In this document: positions 43,059 through 62,708 of the stretch, piece by piece
Layout: each line of letters starts with the position of its first letter
How positions within the stretch are numbered: the stretch's first letter is position 1
Origin: Clostridia bacterium
GTDB lineage: Bacteria > Bacillota > Clostridia > Oscillospirales > CAG-382
NCBI GenBank assembly: GCA_017560085.1
Contig: JAFYPA010000046.1
Location: forward strand, 1-64,000
Direction of reading: 5' to 3'
Length of the DNA stretch: 64,000 bases
Notes under the pieces: generated by a model
Seen by the model: only the letters and a program-made list of their open reading frames with translations
Told to the model about the DNA's origin: nothing
The model's database searches: none
Translations under genes and position numbers: made by a program

Positions 43059-43460
43059 ATGAAATTTACTACAGATGAAAAGGATACGGAATTTGTTCGG
43101 GATGCACTTTATGCGTTCAACCGTGAGATTGTTGGGAATGATGGGCATACACCGCTTAACATTGTTGAAGAGGATTCTGACGGTAATATAATAGGCGGTA
43201 TACTCGGTGGCACTTACTGGGGCTGGATGTATATTGATATTCTTTGGGTGCAGGAAAATCACAGGAGATGCGGGCTTGGCTCAAGGCTTGTTTCCATGGC
43301 GGAGGATGAGGCACGGAAGAGGGGCTGTCATCACGTTCACGTGGATACGATGAGCTGGCAGGCACCCGGATTTTACAAAAAGCTTGGGTACGAGCTTATC
43401 GGAATGTTGCCGGATATTCCCAAGGGTAATGAGAAGTATTTGTTTATCAAGGCGTTATAA
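43059..43460 (+). CDS. GNAT-family N-acetyltransferase
   Basis: The 133-residue protein has the GNAT acetyl-CoA loop HRRCGLGSRLVSMAEDEA and the closing FYKKLGYELIGML, a full-size single GNAT domain. It transfers an acetyl group from acetyl-CoA to an amine, and the substrate is unknown. Ribosome site AGAGGAGTAG lies upstream. It stands alone between the heptamer cluster and a bidirectional terminator. Confidence 0.88.
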   Translation: MKFTTDEKDTEFVRDALYAFNREIVGNDGHTPLNIVEEDSDGNIIGGILGGTYWGWMYIDILWVQENHRRCGLGSRLVSMAEDEARKRGCHHVHVDTMSWQAPGFYKKLGYELIGMLPDIPKGNEKYLFIKAL

Positions 43461-43513: not shown

Positions 43514-43546
43514 AAGAAGACTACACCGCTTCGGTATAGTCTTCTT
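43514..43546. terminator. bidirectional terminator between the acetyltransferase and the giant phosphoesterase gene
   Basis: A 15-base stem (AAGAAGACTACACCG with CGGTATAGTCTTCTT, one mismatch) around a three-base loop lies between converging genes, with T-rich flanks on the plus side. Confidence 0.82.
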
Positions 43547-43565: not shown

Positions 43566-46500
43566 TTATTCGGCAAGCTTTTGCTTTGCTTCGCCTCTGC
43601 CGGAAAGGGGTACAATGTCTTCTCTGTAGATTTTGTTGTTTGAGGAGTAGTAGATTGTTACCTTTGCACGGAGGGAGGTGATTTCCACAACTGCGTGCTT
43701 CTGGGATGTCATGGAAACGTCGTAGTCGTAGATTTCGTTGTAGCGGCGGAGTGAGTAAGGAGCATCGTGCTCGTGGCCGTTGAAGTAGAGCTTGATGTCG
43801 TACTTTTCACATACCGAGGCTATCTTTCCGAGACCGGTTTCGGGGAGCATCGGCGAGCCTACCTGCTGTGACATTCCCCAGTGGTTGTAGAGGATGATGT
43901 GCTTTGCGCCCTCGGCGTTTGCTTCTATTATGGAGTCCTCAACGAATTTAACCATCGCATCGTCTACCTTACCGTAGGAGAAGTAGCTTGCATATGTTCC
44001 CGAATATGCGTAATCGTGGAGAGGATATCCGCCGTAGTTTGTGAAGAATGCTATGTGCGCTACCTTTTCGCCCTTTTCGTTTTCCGTGTACCACAGACCG
44101 TTCTTGATGAATCTTATCTTAAGGTCGCCGTTTGCATCAAGCTGACCTGCTATCGGGTCGTGGTTACCGCAGATTTCGTAGTGAGGAATCTTGCCCTCTG
44201 CCCTGCCCTCTATCGGGTTTACGGGGTCACAGATATCAAGGTTCTTCATTTCCTCGAGGTATACGGCATAGTCTGCGGCGTAGGTGTTTGCGTATCCGTC
44301 GTCTATGTTGTCACCGAGAGAAACTATAAAGTCAAGAGGATTTTCTTCGTGGATTCTTTCGAAGTTGTCAAAGGTGTTGTGCAGCCAGTCGTAGTTTGCC
44401 CAGTTGTATCTTTCACCGATGTGGCTGTCGGACATTACGCCGAATCGTGCGAGCACTGACCATTCACCCTCGAAGGATGCTCCGCTCTTTACCTCTACGC
44501 TCGCCGCACCGTCAAAGCCCTCACTGCTCTTTCCGAGAATCTTTTCACAAAGGTCGAGGCACGCCATTTCGGCACTCTGCTCGTCACCGTAGAATACATA
44601 GAACTTGCCGTTCTCCTCATATACCTTGTACTTTTCAGCCTCAGTTACGGGGCTTTCTCTTCTGTTGGTGGAGCCTACGAGAATTTCATAATCGAACTTT
44701 TCTTCGGCATCTGTTACTATTTCGAGACCGTAGCCTGAAATTTCCGCTATATAGTCGTAGATGTACTGTGCATACTCGGAGGCGATTTCGTCGTTTTCCG
44801 CTGTGACTATTCTGTAATTTCCTATGGATACTCCGCCCACCGTGATTGAGGCAAGGTCGTAGTCTCTTGTGTGGTTTGTTCTTGAGGGAAGGCGGTATTT
44901 GCCGTCCTTTGCGTATTCGTTTTCAATAAAGGAGGTCGCGTTTGCAAGTGCCTTTTCGCTTCCGCCGGTAACGGTAACCGTGCTTCCGGATACGGAAATG
45001 CTCCAGTCGTCTACCTTGTAGTTTTCTCTGTCAACTACGGCTTCAAGAGTTACTCCGGATACCGTTGCTCTTACTCCCGACTTTACAATCGCAAGGTCGG
45101 ATACATTTATTACGCCGTCCTCGTTAAGGTCAATGGCGTTTATGTATTCGGAAAGCGGGAAATCCTTTGAGAAGCCCTTGAGGACTCTTGTGAAGTCATC
45201 AATATCCACAATGCCGTCTCCGACTCCGCTTGCGTCAAGTGTGTCGCCTGCGTACATTACGATTTCGGGAATCTCACCGCCGTCCGTCACCGTAAGAGGA
45301 ACAAGTCTTGTAAGATAGCCGTTCTTCATTACCTTGACTGTGTAATTGCCGGGGATAATATCCGAGGTAAAGGAGAATGTTCTTCTTTCGGAACCGTCAC
45401 TCTCAAGCACCTTGAATTCAACGGCATCTCCCGCTTCATCAAGAATATAAAGCTTGAGATAATCGTATTTCGCGCCTGTTCCGCTTTCTCTGCCCTCAAG
45501 GGTTACCTTGCCCGAGATTTTAACCTCGTCGCTCTTTACGCCCTTGTAGAAGCTTGCGCTGACATATGCACTCTCTCCGTCCGCAAGAGCCGTGTAGCCC
45601 TCGAAGGGAGAAACGATTTCATCGGTTGTGCGCATTTCAATCTGATTGTAGCCCATTCCCCAGGAGCTGAAGTACATCATTATTCTTGCAACTCTGATTC
45701 TGCCGTTTGTGGCATTAACGGGAGCTTCGCTTGTCCACTTGTATTCAATGTAGGGTGTGGTGAAGTACTGAAGTCCGGGCGTGCCCGAATTTCCGCTGAC
45801 AACGGGAGCGTCCACGGTCGAGTTGATTCCGTCCTGCGGAACATTTCCAAGGTAGTAAAGGAACTTGTTGTCCGTGTTAAGCTTGAAGGAGCCCGAGCTT
45901 GCAACCGCATTTTCAAGGTATACGTCGATAACATATCTTCTGAAGCTGTTTCTTGTGCCCGTGTAGTTTTCGGGGTCGCCTCTGTAGTAGGTGTCAACAA
46001 TATATGCGGGACCGCTTGTTGCTATGGCGTAAAGGGTTGTGTCCTTTTCGGCTGTGTGGTTGAGCTTGCCTGTTACGGCATCGGGATTTTCGCTCCAGCC
46101 GATGAAGGTTGAAGAGCCGAGTGTGAGCTTTTCAAGGATTATGTTTTCACCGTTGTATTCTTCAATTGCTTCGGGAACGGTTATGTCGTTTCCGTTGGCG
46201 TCAAAGGTGATTGTGTATTTGGGTGCTTCCGTCCAGATGGCGGTGAGCGTTATGTTCTTATCGGGCATTGTTATTGTACCTTCCGTGTATGTATCTGTTC
46301 CGTCTGTCCATCCTCCGAAGATATATCCGTAGCGGTATATATCCGTGGGAATTTCCACTTCCGTGCCGTTTTCGTACCATGCTGTGGAGTCTTCGTCCGT
46401 GCCTGTTACGAGAGTGAGACTTCTCATTGCGGTATTGGTAAATTCCACAGTGTACTCACCGTAGGATTCGGGGGTGAAGTATGCCTTGCCGTCTGTAACG

Positions 46501-49175
46501 GCAATGACATCGAGAATTGCTTCGTCACCGTCTGTTACCGTTGCGTAGGAATATTCCTTGCCGTCGGCGGATTCTGCCGTGTAGCTTCCGTTTTCACCGT
46601 GGGCAAGCTTTACGCCCTCTCCCGCGGTAACAATGTATGCGCCGCAGCCCTCTTCCTGTCTGATGTTGCTTACAATCGCTGTCGTGCCGTATGCGCAGGC
46701 AACATAGATGTTACCCTTTACGGGATTTGTCATTCCGTTAAAGCCGAAGGAATTCTTCATCTTGCCGTTGATTGTAATTTTTATATCGCCGTCAACGGTT
46801 GAAACACCGCCGAGCGAATCATTCGCAACGGTGATATTTCCGCTGAAGTCGGAGTCTACCGTAATGTCAATACCGGGAATTGTGTTGGATGCCTTACCTA
46901 TAGCAAAGACTCTGAGCATTCCCGCCTCAAGGTCGTTTACGGTAAATACGATTCCCTCGGGATTTGTCTTTGTGGAGTCCGCCTCACCGAGCGCTCTTAT
47001 GTTGAGGTTTGTTGTTGTAATGCTGTCCCCTGCCGTTTTCTGCTGATAGGAGTAAACGCCCTTGCCTATTTCGAAGGGATGTCCGTGGAAGCAGAGGAAT
47101 TCGTTGTTTGTTGTATTGAGGAAGACAACATTGTTTATTGTAATCTTACCCGTGATTACGGAAGAGCCGAAGGGGGTATATGCATATGTGATATATGCAC
47201 CGTCCGTGAAGCTCTTGCCGTTGTCGGATATCTTTGCTCTGTAGTCTATTCCCGAAACGGGGTCGAGAGAGGTAAGAGTGATGTCACCGCCGTTATTCCA
47301 GTTCTTTGAAAGGGTGTTGCTTCCGCCCGTTACTATGATATAACCGCCCGAGGTCTTAAGGCGTGTAACTGCGGATTCTATTGTCTTTAGTGCTGTGTCG
47401 GGGCTGATACCTTCGTTACTGTCGTTACCGCTGTTGCCGTTAACGTAGATTCTTGTTTCTCCCGCGGGAATATCACCCCATACGGGAAGTGCAGTTCTGT
47501 TTTCTGCGGTAAATGTGGCATCTGCCGTGATTATTTCGCTTGTGCCTTCATATGCGTAGCCGAGAAGCTTCTTTCCGTACTTGTAGGGATTGTTCTCGGG
47601 GAACTTCATAGGTGCGCCCTCGTAGCCCGTATGCTGATAGAGGACATTGCCGTTATCGTCCTTGAAGGTTACGGTATATGTGGGGATTTCCTTCCATACC
47701 GCATAGAGAGTGAGAACAGCTGAAAGCGTGATTTCCTCGCCGCCGTCGTAGTCTGCGACAGTACCGTTTTCTGTCGTTGTCCAGCCGTCAAAGCTGTGTG
47801 CGCTCTGGGTTGCGAGAATCGGGAGTATTACCTTGTGCTTATCCGTTTCCTCACTTGTAACTCTGAAGGAATCGGGGCAGGTCTCGTCATAGGGAGAAGT
47901 CACATAGTCTATACCATAGAGAGTCTTATTGGAGGCTCTTACCGTATATTCTCCGTAGCCCGAAGCGGTAAGCGTTGTGCCGTCGCCTATTATGGACTTG
48001 TCAACAGTCTTGCCGTCCGCATCAAGAAGCTCTGCGTAGTTGAATTCGTCGGATTCTACGGTGTAGACGCCCTTCTTGTCTGCGTGGGTTACCCTTACGC
48101 CCTCGGAAGCCTTGACCGTGTATACTCTGCCGTTAAGTCCGTCTGAATCTGTCTTGAGCTGATTTATTATTGTTACATCATCATTGAGAATAATCGAAGC
48201 ATAGGCCTTATCACCGAATGCATAGGAGGCTCTGCTGTGGTAAAGCTTACTGCCTTCACTTCCCGCAAAGAAGGTGAATCTGAGTGCGCCGGTGAGAGTT
48301 ACGACATCTGCGCTGTCGTGAGCGATATTTGTTACCGCCTTTGCGTAATATGTATAGTCAACATTGTCTATCTCATATGTTCCGCCACCTCTTGCGAGCC
48401 AGTTGTGTCCCTCGAAGGTGCTCTTGATAACCGCCTTGACCTCGTGAGGCTTTGCGGCGTTGTTGGAGCTTGTACCGCCCACAAACCAGGTGATTTCATT
48501 ACCTGTTTCGGGAGAGAGGTGTCTTACATTTTCACCGATTACGAATTCGTGGCCGTCAAAGGTAAGGTGACCTATGCCGTACTGACCGTTTACATTGAGA
48601 ATATCAATATTTTCAAATATGATTGCGCCCGTCTTGTAGGTTGCACCGCCCCAGTACACGCCCTGAGGCATATAGAGGTGACCGCCGTTATAGGTTACCG
48701 TGCTGTCAAATTCACCACCGAAGTCGTGTCCCGTAAGGGGGTCGAGGGCTGTGAAGGTTACATCATATACGCTCTTGAGTGTAGGCTGATAAATGATATC
48801 GCATCTGCCCGTAACGACAACCGTACCGCCCGTTTCGTTGAGCTTCTTTACAAGAGTTGCAAGGAGCTTGTAGGGCTTTGCGTAAGTACCGTCACCGTCG
48901 GATGCCGCCTCTCCGTTCCAGTAGTAGATTGCTCCCACCTCGGAGGCTGTCTTGAAGGTTGCGTTTAATGTTATATCCTCTTCACCGAGCTTTTCGGGAT
49001 TTTCGTCCCAGCCCGTGAAGTAGTAGCCGTCCTTTATCGGGTATGTATCGGGATAGATGATTGTAGCGCCCTTTACGCCCACGAAGGAAGCAAATTCCGT
49101 ATCGCCGTTCTTGAAGGTTACCTTGTAGGTTTCAGCCTCTGTCCATACGGCGTAGAGGGTTATATTCTCATTCAC
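43566..49175 (-). pseudogene. 5'-truncated giant gene: InlB repeats, beta-helix-like regions, dockerin and metallophosphoesterase
   Basis: The open frame codes 1869 residues from a GTG at 49175. It begins inside an InlB/Flg_new repeat (NITLYAVWTEAETYKV) with no signal peptide. Upstream, the same frame continues only to 49196 before a TAA. In order: InlB repeats, beta-helix-like regions from about 86 and 573 (VNGNSGNDSNEGISPDTA), further InlB repeats to about 1040, a cohesin-like part (about 1053-1200), a beta-sandwich, a dockerin (about 1316-1375, GVGDGIVDIDDF), a hydrolase-accessory-like domain, and a calcineurin-type phosphoesterase (about 1573-1869) with SDSHIG, GDN, GNHD and GHEH intact. 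The 3' end is complete, and the 5' end is lost or misassembled. Confidence 0.8.
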
Positions 49176-49224
49176 GGTAAAGGATGCACCGCCCTGTTAA
49201 CAGATAGTATAATATCCAAAACCG

Positions 49225-49253
49225 ATTATACAGCAAACAGCACAAAAAATCAA
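49225..49253 (-). promoter_or_regulatory. promoter directly upstream of the truncated giant gene
   Basis: On the minus strand TTGATT (49253-49248) and TATAAT (49230-49225) are 17 bases apart. The start of transcription would be near 49218, about 20 bases before the open frame begins, so no room is left for a normal leader and signal peptide. Confidence 0.7.
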
Positions 49254-49355
49254 GGGGTTTCAGTTGGTTTTTGAAACAAAAAGCAAAAAACACAAGTCTT
49301 TTTATCCGTTGTGAAATAAAGTTTGCAAAATGATGTTTCTTTTGGTATTCAGCCG

Positions 49356-49395: not shown

Positions 49396-50034
49396 ATGTT
49401 CCCTCTGAAAATAAAGGAAATTGTAAAAGACCTCCCCTTCACAAAGGACGACATCGGCAGAAGCAGAGACGAGGTCTACATATTTGATAAAAGATTCGTT
49501 CTGAAGATATCGACGGACAGCGAAAGGCTTTTTCGTGAGAAGGAAAGAGTAGACTTTCTTAATAATGCGGGCTTCCCGGGCAGTAAAAGTGTCTTATACC
49601 TCGAGCAGGACGATAAATTCTACTATCTTCGCACCTGTCTTGACGGCGACAGTCTTATCGACAAGAGATTCATTGAAAATCCGAGCCTTCTTATTTCCGT
49701 GATTTCCGAGGTGTTTTCCGCACTTCGCAGCCTTGACGGCGTCGGATGTCCCTTTAAATCCACCGACAATGAGGGAGACGATTTTATTCACGGGGATTTG
49801 TGTCTTCCCAATATTTATGTTGACAAGGACAACAGATTTATCGGCTTTATCGACCTTGATAATTCGGGGCTGGGCGACAGATGGTATGACATTGCATGGA
49901 TTCTCTGGAGTCTTGAGTATAATCTTTCAACAGACAAATACAACGAGGCTCTGCTTTCCGAAATCGGTGTTGTGTTCGACAGAGATAAATTCGAGGAGTA
50001 TATCCCCGAGAAGCTCAGAGGTATGAGGCTGTAA
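49396..50034 (+). CDS. aminoglycoside phosphotransferase (APH(3')-like) family protein
   Basis: The start at ATG 49396 after AAAGGAG gives 212 residues. The kinase-like catalytic loop FIHGDLCLPNIYVD and the metal-binding region GFIDLDNSGLGDRWYDIAW fit the APH family, closest in form to APH(3')-type enzymes (HGD-x-CLPN). A VLKIS lysine sits in the N-lobe. It is shorter than typical APH(3') proteins (about 260-270), mainly through a compact N-lobe and C-terminus. It may phosphorylate an antibiotic or a native small molecule, and resistance cannot be claimed from sequence. Confidence 0.8.
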   Translation: MFPLKIKEIVKDLPFTKDDIGRSRDEVYIFDKRFVLKISTDSERLFREKERVDFLNNAGFPGSKSVLYLEQDDKFYYLRTCLDGDSLIDKRFIENPSLLISVISEVFSALRSLDGVGCPFKSTDNEGDDFIHGDLCLPNIYVDKDNRFIGFIDLDNSGLGDRWYDIAWILWSLEYNLSTDKYNEALLSEIGVVFDRDKFEEYIPEKLRGMRL

Positions 50035-57588: not shown

Positions 57589-60500
57589 TTATTTTACGAA
57601 ATAAACCTCTGTATCCTCAATACCATACTTCTTGAACACCTCAAGAATATCATCGGTATAAGCCAGCCTTACAACCGACATCTCATACTCACCGAAGGTT
57701 GCGGTGTTGTCGTCCGTGGAGAGATGCTGAATCCATGTGTTGTTCTTCATAATGGGCTTTGAAGTAGGTGCTGTAAGTGCGGGAAGTCCTATGTGAATCA
57801 TCATATAGGTGCTTCTGTCAAAGATGTTGCCGGAGATAACATAGGAGTTATCCTTTACTGCATTGTACTTTGTCCACGCTTTGATGTGCGCCGCGCTTGT
57901 CTTGTCGGGACGGAGGGAGGAAATACCTATGCCCGCTTCACGCATAATGTTATTATTGATTGTGAAGTCGTAGATGTGGTACTTGGTTACATCCTTGTCG
58001 GCGGGGTCAACCCAGTATTCTACGGAGTACTGACACTTTTCAATGACATTGTTGTCAAAGTGAGTGTCATAAATCTGTACATTGGCACCCGTGCTCTGGA
58101 AGGTTATACCGCAGTCGTAGCACTGATAGATATAGTTGTTGTAAACATAATATCCGTTCGCATAGCCGGTTTCAATCGCGTTACCGTATCTTACGCCCCT
58201 ACCCTTAAGGCTGCCCACGCTTGTTGTGGAGCTGAAGGACTGATGTCCGCCTCCGATAAAGCCGAATATACAATCCTTGACCGTGAAGTTTGTAGAGGAG
58301 GTTGCGTGAATTGCGTGTGCTCCGCCGTACATTACGCAGATGTTTTCGATAACGGTATTCTCAAAGTGATAGTCTGAATTCTGTGCCTTTATAAGATGTC
58401 TTGAGGGCATAAACTCAATGGAGTCGAACACCTCACCGGGGTTACCTGCGTCGCATCTCAAATAGAGATATCCCAATGTTCTTGAGGGAATCGGAACACC
58501 GCTTTCGGGGATTGTTTCGCAGAACATTGAAAGGTCAGTCTTGAGGAAGGTCTTTACATCAATGGGTGTACCGTCGACATACTCGAATCTGTCGTTCTTA
58601 TAATAAACCTGAGATGTTGTTGCCCAACTTTCTCCGCCGTTGAAGATGAGAGTACCCTGGTCAATCATTCTTCTTTCGTACTTCCAGATGTTGGTTGTGC
58701 CCTCAAAAAGCGACCATTTGGATGCGTCTGCACCGTCCTCGGGAGAGCCGTAGATTCTCGGCTTTTCGCCCTCTCCGTATGCGGAGTAGCTTACGCCCTT
58801 GGTGATGTGAAGGGCATCAAGGTCATCGGGGATTCTGAATATATCGCCTCTTCTGAAGTATACGACATCGCCCTTTTTGTATGCTGCTTCGGATACCTTT
58901 CGGAGTGTCTTCCATGCTGTTTCGGGAGATTTACCGTCGTTTGCGTCGTTACCCTCTGCGGAAACATAGTATGCGGTACAGCCCTCTGCGGGAACAACGG
59001 TTGTGGGTGTGTTTTTGATTTCCTCTATTCTCTTTGCGGTAAGGGCATCAACCTCGGCAATTTTTGCCGTGCCCTTTTCGAAGTCCGCGGTTGAAGTAAC
59101 AGCCATAATTATACCATAAGCCCAATGGGAACTGTCAAGGTCGGAGTAGTATTGAGCCTTGTCCTTTCTTTCGGAAATGTCAAGAATTCTTGTGAGTATG
59201 GTTGTGATTTCCGCTCTTGTAAGAGTCTTGGAAGGACCGAATGTACCGTCACTGTAGCCGTTGATAAAGCCTATTTCTGCGGCGGCAATTATTTCCGTGG
59301 CAAACCTTGTTTCACTTGTCACATCCGAGAAGGACTTTGTAGGATTCTTGACGGAAGCGGGGTCAAATGCACCTGCGTTTGCGCAGAGCTTTACGAATTC
59401 CGCTCTTGTTATAGGCTCGGAAGCCTTGAACTCGCCCGAGAAGATGCCGTCGAATATGCCGTATCTTTCAAGGTATGATACATAGTCGTAGTACCAGTCG
59501 GATTTTGAAATTTCGGTAAAGGCGGTTTCTCTTTCCCGGGCGATAACGGATTCTCTGTCCATAAGTCTTGCAAGGACGGTTGCCGCCTCGGCTCTTGTCA
59601 TTCCCTGATTGGGTCTGAAGGTGCCGTCACTGTAGCCCGTCATAATGGATATGTAGGCTCTTGACTTTGCGCTCATAATTGTGCGGAGCTCCTCTGCGGA
59701 GAATTCCTGTGCGCTTTCTACCTTCGCAAGACCGCTGAAGGCTTTTGCGTTTTCTGTGCTGTCGAACATCATAATGTAGTCGAACATTATATAGTCGGTG
59801 TCGTTCTTTCCGGGTAAAAGCATTGCGTGACCGCCGTAGAGCTTGTTGATTTCCTTGCAGAAGGGAGTCTGGTTTACAAGGTGATATTCCTTATTTGCAT
59901 CACGCTTTGTCCAGCCGTTGGGGTCGGAAAGGTCGAGAATTACCTTCTGCCATTCGCCCGTGAAGGACACGGGGAAGAATTTCTGATAGTTTGAGTCAAG
60001 GGTCTTAAAGCCGATTTCACCATCGAATGCTCTTGAGGTCTTTGCGACCATTGTAAAATAGGGCTTGTCATAGCTCATATAGTAGCTTTCGGGAGATGTA
60101 TCAAACGTTATTCTCATTTGTGAGGGATCTGTCGGAGCGAACTTCACATAGTCGCCCTCAACCGTAATGCTTCCGCTTCCCCAGGTGTACATTTCGGGTC
60201 TTTCCATATCTCCGCCCTTGCCGAGAGGATAGTAGCACTTTGTGGGTGCATATTTCGAATCACCGTAGGGGATTTCCTTGCCGTACTGAGGACGGAGCTC
60301 GTAGAGGAATGCCTCTCCCTTGTTTTCCTTGTAGAATGTAACAGATTCCATAACTTCACCTTCGGCCTCACCAAACAAATCCGATGCGAAGGATTCGCCC
60401 GCCGTTGCCATTACACTGTAATTTTCAGCCTTTTCCTTATCCTTGAAGAAGCCGAAGTAGTCAAAATAATAATGCTTCACATATGTGCTTCCCGAGATAT

Positions 60501-61764
60501 AGAACTTGAATCCGCCGAAAAAGCTTTTTATTTCCTCACTGTAGGGAGCTACCTTCGAGGGCACGGTATATTCGCCGTTTTCGTCCTTTTCGAACCAGCC
60601 GTCCGCTCCGCTTATGTCAATGGTGACTCTCTGCCATTTGCCCGTAAAGTCCACATTGAATATTTTCTGACGCTTACCCGCAAGGTCAACAAGCTTTACC
60701 TTGCCCGAAAATGCCTTTTCAGAGCAAACCATAAAGGAAAGATAATTATGCTCATAGTCGTCCGTATAAAGATTCTTGGGGACGGTATCGAAAACAACCG
60801 TAGCCCAGTCACCTGATTTTGTTGTCAGCTTGGTAAAGCCAAGCTCCTGAGTAAGCTCGCAGGTGCCGAAGGGATAGATTTCGGGTGTGTTGTATTTTCC
60901 GCTTTTGTCGGGATCGGGGAAATAGCACTTGTTTACTCTGCCCTGACCGTAGGGAATCTGCTCTCCCAGCGGAACTCGCATATTGTAGAGAACAGCGGTA
61001 TTTTCCTCGTCTCTGCCCTCTTTGATGACAAAGCCCTCTTCCACCTTTTCCTCGTTTATTTTCGCAAAGGGTGTACCCTCTGCAGCGAGACCGCTGTAGT
61101 TATCAGCAAGGGATTTTTCCGTGAAGAATCCGAAGTAATCGAAATGATAATGCTTTACATATGCACTGCCCGAGATATAGAACTTAAAGCCACCGAAGAA
61201 ACTCTCTACGTCCGCACTGTAGGGAGCAACCGTCGAGGGAACGGTATATTCACCTTTTTCGTCCTTTTCGAACCAGCCGTCCGCTCCGCTCATATCAAGG
61301 GTTACCTTCTGCCACTTGCCGGTAAAGTCCACATTGAATATCTTCTGACGCTTACCCGCAAGGTCAATAAGCTTTACCTTGCCCGCAAACGCCTTTTCGG
61401 CACACACCATAAAGGAAAGGTAGTTATGTGTATAGTCGTTGATATAAAGATTTGTCGGAACTGTATCAAAAACAATTGAAGCATAGTCCTCGGACTTCGG
61501 TGTCATTTTCACAAAGCCGCCGTCCATTGAAAGCTCGCAGGTACCGAAGGGATACATTTCCGGTGTGCCGTATACTCCGCTTTTGTCTGGGTCGGGGAAA
61601 TAGCACTTGTTCACTCTGCCCTGACCGTAGGGAATTGTCGTGCCGTCGGGAGCGCGGAGATTGTACATTACAATCGGGTCCTCGGCACCGCTTACATTGA
61701 GAGTTACCGTACACATTGCCGCAAGCATTATAATTGCAAGTATGCCGGATAATAGCTTTTTCAT
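57589..61764 (-). CDS. secreted SLH-domain protein with tandem N-terminal domains and C-terminal beta-helix
   Basis: The start is ATG 61764, six bases after GGAGGTAA. An ATG at 61779 overlaps the AraC gene. The 1391-residue protein has a signal peptide (about 1-26), two nearly identical beta-sandwich units (32-257 and 258-485, 226 residues apart, each with IPYGQGRVNKCYFPDPDKSG), a diverged third unit (486-670), three SLH modules (about 700-900) and a beta-helix (about 930-1391) opening with AYYVSAEGNDANDGKSPETA. It is a paralogue of the protein at 39451-42957. The AraC-type gene five bases upstream is surely in the same transcript. Likely a wall-bound glycan-binding or glycan-acting protein. 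Confidence 0.88.
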   Translation of the reverse strand: MKKLLSGILAIIMLAAMCTVTLNVSGAEDPIVMYNLRAPDGTTIPYGQGRVNKCYFPDPDKSGVYGTPEMYPFGTCELSMDGGFVKMTPKSEDYASIVFDTVPTNLYINDYTHNYLSFMVCAEKAFAGKVKLIDLAGKRQKIFNVDFTGKWQKVTLDMSGADGWFEKDEKGEYTVPSTVAPYSADVESFFGGFKFYISGSAYVKHYHFDYFGFFTEKSLADNYSGLAAEGTPFAKINEEKVEEGFVIKEGRDEENTAVLYNMRVPLGEQIPYGQGRVNKCYFPDPDKSGKYNTPEIYPFGTCELTQELGFTKLTTKSGDWATVVFDTVPKNLYTDDYEHNYLSFMVCSEKAFSGKVKLVDLAGKRQKIFNVDFTGKWQRVTIDISGADGWFEKDENGEYTVPSKVAPYSEEIKSFFGGFKFYISGSTYVKHYYFDYFGFFKDKEKAENYSVMATAGESFASDLFGEAEGEVMESVTFYKENKGEAFLYELRPQYGKEIPYGDSKYAPTKCYYPLGKGGDMERPEMYTWGSGSITVEGDYVKFAPTDPSQMRITFDTSPESYYMSYDKPYFTMVAKTSRAFDGEIGFKTLDSNYQKFFPVSFTGEWQKVILDLSDPNGWTKRDANKEYHLVNQTPFCKEINKLYGGHAMLLPGKNDTDYIMFDYIMMFDSTENAKAFSGLAKVESAQEFSAEELRTIMSAKSRAYISIMTGYSDGTFRPNQGMTRAEAATVLARLMDRESVIARERETAFTEISKSDWYYDYVSYLERYGIFDGIFSGEFKASEPITRAEFVKLCANAGAFDPASVKNPTKSFSDVTSETRFATEIIAAAEIGFINGYSDGTFGPSKTLTRAEITTILTRILDISERKDKAQYYSDLDSSHWAYGIIMAVTSTADFEKGTAKIAEVDALTAKRIEEIKNTPTTVVPAEGCTAYYVSAEGNDANDGKSPETAWKTLRKVSEAAYKKGDVVYFRRGDIFRIPDDLDALHITKGVSYSAYGEGEKPRIYGSPEDGADASKWSLFEGTTNIWKYERRMIDQGTLIFNGGESWATTSQVYYKNDRFEYVDGTPIDVKTFLKTDLSMFCETIPESGVPIPSRTLGYLYLRCDAGNPGEVFDSIEFMPSRHLIKAQNSDYHFENTVIENICVMYGGAHAIHATSSTNFTVKDCIFGFIGGGHQSFSSTTSVGSLKGRGVRYGNAIETGYANGYYVYNNYIYQCYDCGITFQSTGANVQIYDTHFDNNVIEKCQYSVEYWVDPADKDVTKYHIYDFTINNNIMREAGIGISSLRPDKTSAAHIKAWTKYNAVKDNSYVISGNIFDRSTYMMIHIGLPALTAPTSKPIMKNNTWIQHLSTDDNTATFGEYEMSVVRLAYTDDILEVFKKYGIEDTEVYFVK
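60300..61675 (-). repeat. 678-base tandem duplication inside the SLH/beta-helix gene
   Basis: The first two N-terminal units are a direct repeat with a period of 678 bases (for instance CTGACCGTAG at 61621 and again at 60943), with strong similarity over most of the unit. A third, older copy lies further toward the SLH part. Confidence 0.8.
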
Positions 61765-61769
61765 TTCTG

Positions 61770-62708
61770 TTACCTCCATATAACCTTTCCGTTTTCGTCA
61801 TATTTCAAGGGGATAATACCGCCCTTTTTTGCATAATCCTCTGTGTTTTCCCTTCTCGACCGCTTTGTGACCTCACCCGGAGTTATACCGAAGCGCTTTT
61901 TGAAGGCATAATAAAAATTCGGGTAGGAGGAATATCCGACCTCCATACATATTTCCTGAATGGTTTTGTCCTTTTCCATAAGAAGATGATAGGCATTTTC
62001 CAGCCGAAGGGTGATAAGATAGGAGGAAAAGGTCATTCTTGTGGTCTTTTTTATAAGATTTCCGAGATAGTCGGGGCTGTAGCCGACGTGCTTTGCGACA
62101 TCTCCGATTTTTATCGGCTTGTTGTAATTTTTCATAATATAGATTATCGCCATAAGCACCTTTGAGTCTATGCTCTCTTCTCTTTTAGCGATATTGCTTT
62201 TCATATATGCGTCCGAAACCACGGCAAGAAGCTTCTGTACAACACCAGAAACGAACATTTTCTTTTTTTCCTCGGAGATTTTGGATTCTATAACTCCGTA
62301 AAGCTCGGAGCATACAAACTCAAAGTCCTCCTCGGAAAGCTTCAGAATAAAGCTTTCAAGAGTGTCAAAGGCTTCAACGACAGTCTTTTCGAATTTGCCC
62401 TTGAAGGCAATATTGGCAAGGGTAAACGGCTCGCCCTCCACGGGAAAAATACAGTGAATCGAGGCGGGTGTTCCGAAAATTATATCGCCTGCCGTCACCA
62501 CGGCCTCGCCGTCCCTTGAGCGGTTTATCCCCGTGCCTGCGAGAACAAGGTCGAATTCAAAAAAGGTATGAGTATGAAAAAACTGACCGTGATCCCTGAA
62601 GGCTATGTCCTTTACCGTAACATAAAAATTCTCATCCGCATAGGAGAACGACGGATTCATATGATTGGAGTTGCTGAGAAAGGAACACATAAAAAGCTTG
62701 TTGTCCAT
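61770..62708 (-). CDS. AraC-family transcriptional regulator
   Basis: The 312-residue protein has an N-terminal cupin domain (about 20-160, with FFHTHTFFEFDLVLAGTG), a helical linker and a C-terminal AraC DNA-binding domain with KIGDVAKHVGYSPDYLGNLI and the family end YAFKKRFGITPGEVT. GGAGGTG precedes the ATG. Its stop codon sits inside the ribosome site of the SLH/beta-helix gene, so the two are translationally coupled and it probably regulates this unit in response to a sugar. Confidence 0.92.
   Translation of the reverse strand: MDNKLFMCSFLSNSNHMNPSFSYADENFYVTVKDIAFRDHGQFFHTHTFFEFDLVLAGTGINRSRDGEAVVTAGDIIFGTPASIHCIFPVEGEPFTLANIAFKGKFEKTVVEAFDTLESFILKLSEEDFEFVCSELYGVIESKISEEKKKMFVSGVVQKLLAVVSDAYMKSNIAKREESIDSKVLMAIIYIMKNYNKPIKIGDVAKHVGYSPDYLGNLIKKTTRMTFSSYLITLRLENAYHLLMEKDKTIQEICMEVGYSSYPNFYYAFKKRFGITPGEVTKRSRRENTEDYAKKGGIIPLKYDENGKVIWR

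Follow-up and report, generated by a model that had tools for sequence, protein, structure and literature searches.

In Streptococcus equi 4047, the B-repeat (PF09479) gene SEQ1307a has lost its 5′ part, and only the last 112 residues remain (PMC2654543). By contrast, the B-repeat surface protein SZO08560 of S. zooepidemicus H70 has a whole coding region preceded by a promoter that is flanked by 10-bp inverted repeats and has a recombinase adjacent to it (PMC2654543). We compared these systems with a locus in a 64,000-nucleotide stretch of Clostridia bacterium DNA (the window), in which a promoter-like sequence also lies upstream of a gene for a B-repeat surface protein. In common with SEQ1307a, this gene is devoid of its 5′ part while its relatives are whole. 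It differs from SEQ1307a in that 1,876 codons are kept and the locus has no known recombinase, whereas the streptococcal gene carries an LPXTG anchor and lost an adjacent recombinase gene as well. From SZO08560 it differs more deeply, as neither a whole coding region nor inverted repeats nor an adjacent recombinase is found here. The plain 5′ loss in S. equi is the nearer parallel than the switch of S. zooepidemicus, and the truncation is most likely ordinary in kind.

The window belongs to a 3.1-Mb draft genome (G000; 128 contigs, 91% complete) and the locus lies on contig C33, whose length of 83,096 bases places the junction described below well inside the contig. The open frame (43566-49196, minus strand) encodes B-repeats, further repeat modules, a type I dockerin and a metallophosphoesterase, with Pfam matches to Flg_new (three Listeria-Bacteroides repeats), Dockerin_1 and Metallophos (calcineurin-like phosphoesterase). 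Its first residues, QGGASFTVNENITLYAVWTE, are the tail of a Listeria-Bacteroides (InlB B) repeat, and an in-frame TAA stop (49197-49199, minus strand), which marks the junction, stands immediately upstream of the coding homology. The first-pass annotation had described a 5.6-kb minus-strand frame that begins in the middle of an InlB repeat and reaches upstream only to 49196, where a stop follows; both points were borne out. The 5′ end retains neither an ATG nor a signal peptide, and no start codon lies in frame further upstream; the earliest in-frame start codon is a GTG at 49175. The remaining 5.6 kb contains neither stops nor frameshifts. A strong terminator-like hairpin with a 15-pair stem (43514-43546, minus strand) follows the gene, whose 3′ end is intact.

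What has been lost becomes apparent from full-length relatives. A paralog in the same genome (C82; locus L036, C82:22000-32261) is complete with 2,592 amino acids, an ATG and a signal peptide, and so is a copy on contig C120 (L037) of the sister species (G001), the metagenome-assembled genome Oscillospiraceae bacterium SIG622; the two proteins are about 2,575-2,590 residues long. Both share the domain order of the truncated gene over 1,860 aligned residues at 56-57% identity (57% for C82) and end, as it does, in a dockerin and a metallophosphoesterase at the C-terminus. In contrast to it, they possess an ATG, a signal peptide and about 700 extra N-terminal residues: 708 residues precede the point where the truncated gene starts in C82, and 698 do so in C120, a loss of ~2.1 kb. 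The nearest copy, C83 of the sister species, is 68% identical and reaches beyond this point by 456 residues or more, up to the end of its contig. In a codon-level comparison with the three relatives, homology reaches 49196 and nothing beyond. The lost part is absent from the assembly, as a search of the 91%-complete genome for the missing N-terminal part recovered it only as C82's own N-terminus. The comparison with full-length relatives thus supports the description of a decapitated gene behind a promoter. SIG622 was the only relative obtained from the named-genome collection, and no further genome of the genus was available for comparison. No intact allele of the locus was seen in the one genome that represents the species of the window, which counts against the deletion proposed below. 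At E <= 1e-50 the giant gene was restricted to this genus among the 63 family genomes searched, and IMG/VR contained no matches to either the giant gene or the promoter string. The proteins encoded at L036 and L037, each of about 2,600 residues, combine B-repeats with the dockerin and the metallophosphoesterase. In the truncated gene itself, a segment of 31 bp (49124-49154; TACGCCGTATGGACAGAGGCTGAAACCTACA) is identical to C82 while the rest of the gene is near 70% identical at the DNA level, perhaps reflecting gene conversion between B-repeats or mere codon bias in a conserved motif.

To see how common 5′ loss is among related surface genes, we took 20 stretches of the genome that carry them. 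They contain 25 related open reading frames, four of which are cut by the end of a stretch or contig. A start with a signal peptide was found in 20 of the 21 frames with a visible 5′ end, and the truncated gene is the sole exception. With 20 of 21 intact, the truncation is a single event. Routine swapping or stripping of 5′ ends in this genome is disfavoured, as more headless genes would then be expected. About two dozen large secreted proteins, spread over about 20 contigs, share the dockerin-side region of the gene; judged from sequence, this set of dockerin proteins suggests a cellulosome-like or similar assembly.

Next, we considered the sequences that could drive expression. A sigma-70-like promoter, TTGATT-17-TATAAT (49225-49253, minus strand), matches 10 of 12 positions and ends 28 nt upstream of the junction. 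When the 196-bp intergenic stretch was dinucleotide-shuffled, a site as good arose on one strand with a probability of 0.082; shuffling the 70 bp that adjoin the junction gave 0.012. The first-pass annotation had called this an intact promoter. The site is indeed present in the correct orientation and at a short distance, and it is likely to be an intact promoter as predicted from its sequence, but the match itself is only suggestive. That it is not far above chance counts against an in-place deletion. It had further been claimed that no leader, ribosome site or signal peptide is left. While a start and a signal peptide are absent, the claim is too strong in respect of the ribosome site, as a ribosome-site-like AGGGCGGTG (49187-49195, minus strand) lies ahead of GTG 49175 within B-repeat coding sequence. 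Its pairing with the anti-SD (-10.1 kcal/mol) is equalled by just 1.0% of 305 internal start codons and matches that of regions upstream of real starts, although the spacing to the GTG is long (11-13 nt). A signal-less cytoplasmic product is possible by virtue of this site. Scans of the window with Rfam and for tRNAs gave no matches.

We consider it probable (about 0.6), on sequence grounds, that the gene is a recent 5′-truncated pseudogene produced by a single in-place deletion. The ancestor would have been a full-length secreted dockerin-metallophosphoesterase surface protein of about 2,600 amino acids. One illegitimate deletion of roughly 2.1-2.2 kb would have removed the leader, the start codon, the signal peptide and the first ~700 residues, and would have brought untranslated leader sequence, from immediately below the promoter, up against the old frame at about codon 700. 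Transcription from the promoter may persist, but an exported protein would be impossible; translation from GTG 49175 could at best yield a cytoplasmic fragment with no signal peptide. The deletion is favoured by the same-strand promoter 28 nt away together with the intact terminator, as well as by the unbroken remainder of the frame and the signal-peptide starts of the 20 other comparable genes. We infer the promoter to be native to the gene, the loss to be an in-place deletion and the product to lack function. Of the three explanations offered by the first-pass annotation (a deletion, a cassette switch and an assembly collapse in repeats), the deletion fits best, given full-length relatives and a lost part that occurs nowhere else.

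The alternative of greatest weight, though an unlikely one, is that the contig wrongly joins a promoter region to the middle of a gene, or picks one strain variant, and that the cells carry a full-length gene. The draft state of the assembly (128 contigs, 91% complete), the many related repeats in the genome and the fact that a contig end cuts the sister's closest copy within the corresponding N-terminal region are consistent with this, and a chimeric join or a strain mixture behind the junction is possible. However, a false join normally requires a shared repeat, and none crosses 49196/49197: exact matches close to the junction did not exceed 14 bp in the 631 kb of other DNA compared, genome-wide matches stop at 49165 or earlier, and the promoter-side sequence is single-copy in the genome. 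Collapse of repeats fits badly for the same reasons, and also because a collapse would retain the native 5′ end and fuse one repeat with another, whereas here unique non-repeat sequence meets the middle of a repeat. A less probable event is the insertion of a 3′ fragment of the gene, by partial duplication or horizontal transfer, beside an unrelated promoter. Its appeal comes from the neighbours. The convergent gene on the 3′ side (43059-43460, plus strand), presumably for a GNAT-like acetyltransferase, and the divergent gene (49396-50034, plus strand), which has its own start and ribosome site and whose product is presumably phosphotransferase-like, judged by its motifs, both are without a homologue in the sister species, and only partial homologues of the latter's protein were found among the 63 family genomes. 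C83 is flanked there by 3′ neighbours unlike those of the truncated gene, which weighs against a deletion in place and makes an inserted partial copy an alternative, if a rather improbable one. The junction region is not comparable in the sister species, as the copy of the transporter gene on the right side ends there at a contig end. Against an insertion, a search for a flanking repeat at the junction found none, the gene is framed by a same-strand promoter and its own terminator, and the genome holds no donor nearer than 57%.

A phase-variable switch, in which DNA inversion or exchange of 5′ cassettes sets different N-termini, or none, behind the promoter, has a precedent in the invertible promoter of SZO08560 (PMC2654543), and a 10-bp palindrome, CTGTTAACAG, sits on the junction. 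We nevertheless regard such a switch as very improbable. Direct and inverted repeats at the junction amount to chance-level pairs only; the promoter has no flanking inverted repeats beyond chance (two imperfect pairs of 10-11 nt in 401 bp, for which the chance expectation is our own estimate), and the best inverted pair within about 12 kb is 12 nt with a mismatch. Serine and tyrosine recombinases (PF00239, PF00589) were found on other contigs only. A search elsewhere in the genome recovered neither alternative 5′ cassettes sharing a crossover sequence nor any alternative N-terminal piece, and all 20 related genes that are comparable at the 5′ end are intact. We set aside CTGTTAACAG as a switch site, as it is one of 50 equally long palindromes in the 64-kb window, a number near chance, and also occurs in other loci that were compared. 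The on/off surface switch of the first-pass annotation therefore finds no support, with no junction repeats, no 5′ cassettes and no recombinase on the contig. Even less credible is a population that mixes full-length and decapitated forms, in which a reversible rearrangement without recognisable repeats toggles secretion of the dockerin-phosphoesterase; the locus would gain importance if conspecific strains showed both forms, since the surface switch would then operate without inverted repeats of the usual sort. As improbable as a phase-variable switch is the idea that the shortened gene still works, with a cytoplasmic protein translated from GTG 49175. The strong pairing of AGGGCGGTG and the intact frame speak for it, but the bases of AGGGCGGTG are ordinary B-repeat codons at a long spacing, and dockerin and B-repeat proteins act extracellularly; no partner would be expected for a form that lacks the signal peptide.

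Finally, we asked how the remaining part of the gene has evolved. Compared with C83 (NG86), dN was 0.24 and dS 1.8, the latter near saturation, and the remainder of the gene evolved under purifying selection. Unique changes numbered 176 in the truncated copy against 140 in C83 (chi2 4.1), or 166 against 133 (chi2 3.6), a slight acceleration. As the excess is only slight, relaxed selection, if any, is recent; as the frame is otherwise unbroken, the 5′ loss is probably recent too. As one broken surface gene, the locus has little importance other than for annotation, as gene callers will report a protein of 1,869 aa starting at GTG 49175 that is probably not made in secreted form. Elsewhere in the window, another surface-protein frame (57592-61797, minus strand) contains direct repeats at 60437-60957 and 61115-61635, lying 678 bp apart; their identity is 83% across 521 bp and 86% across the initial 300 nt.
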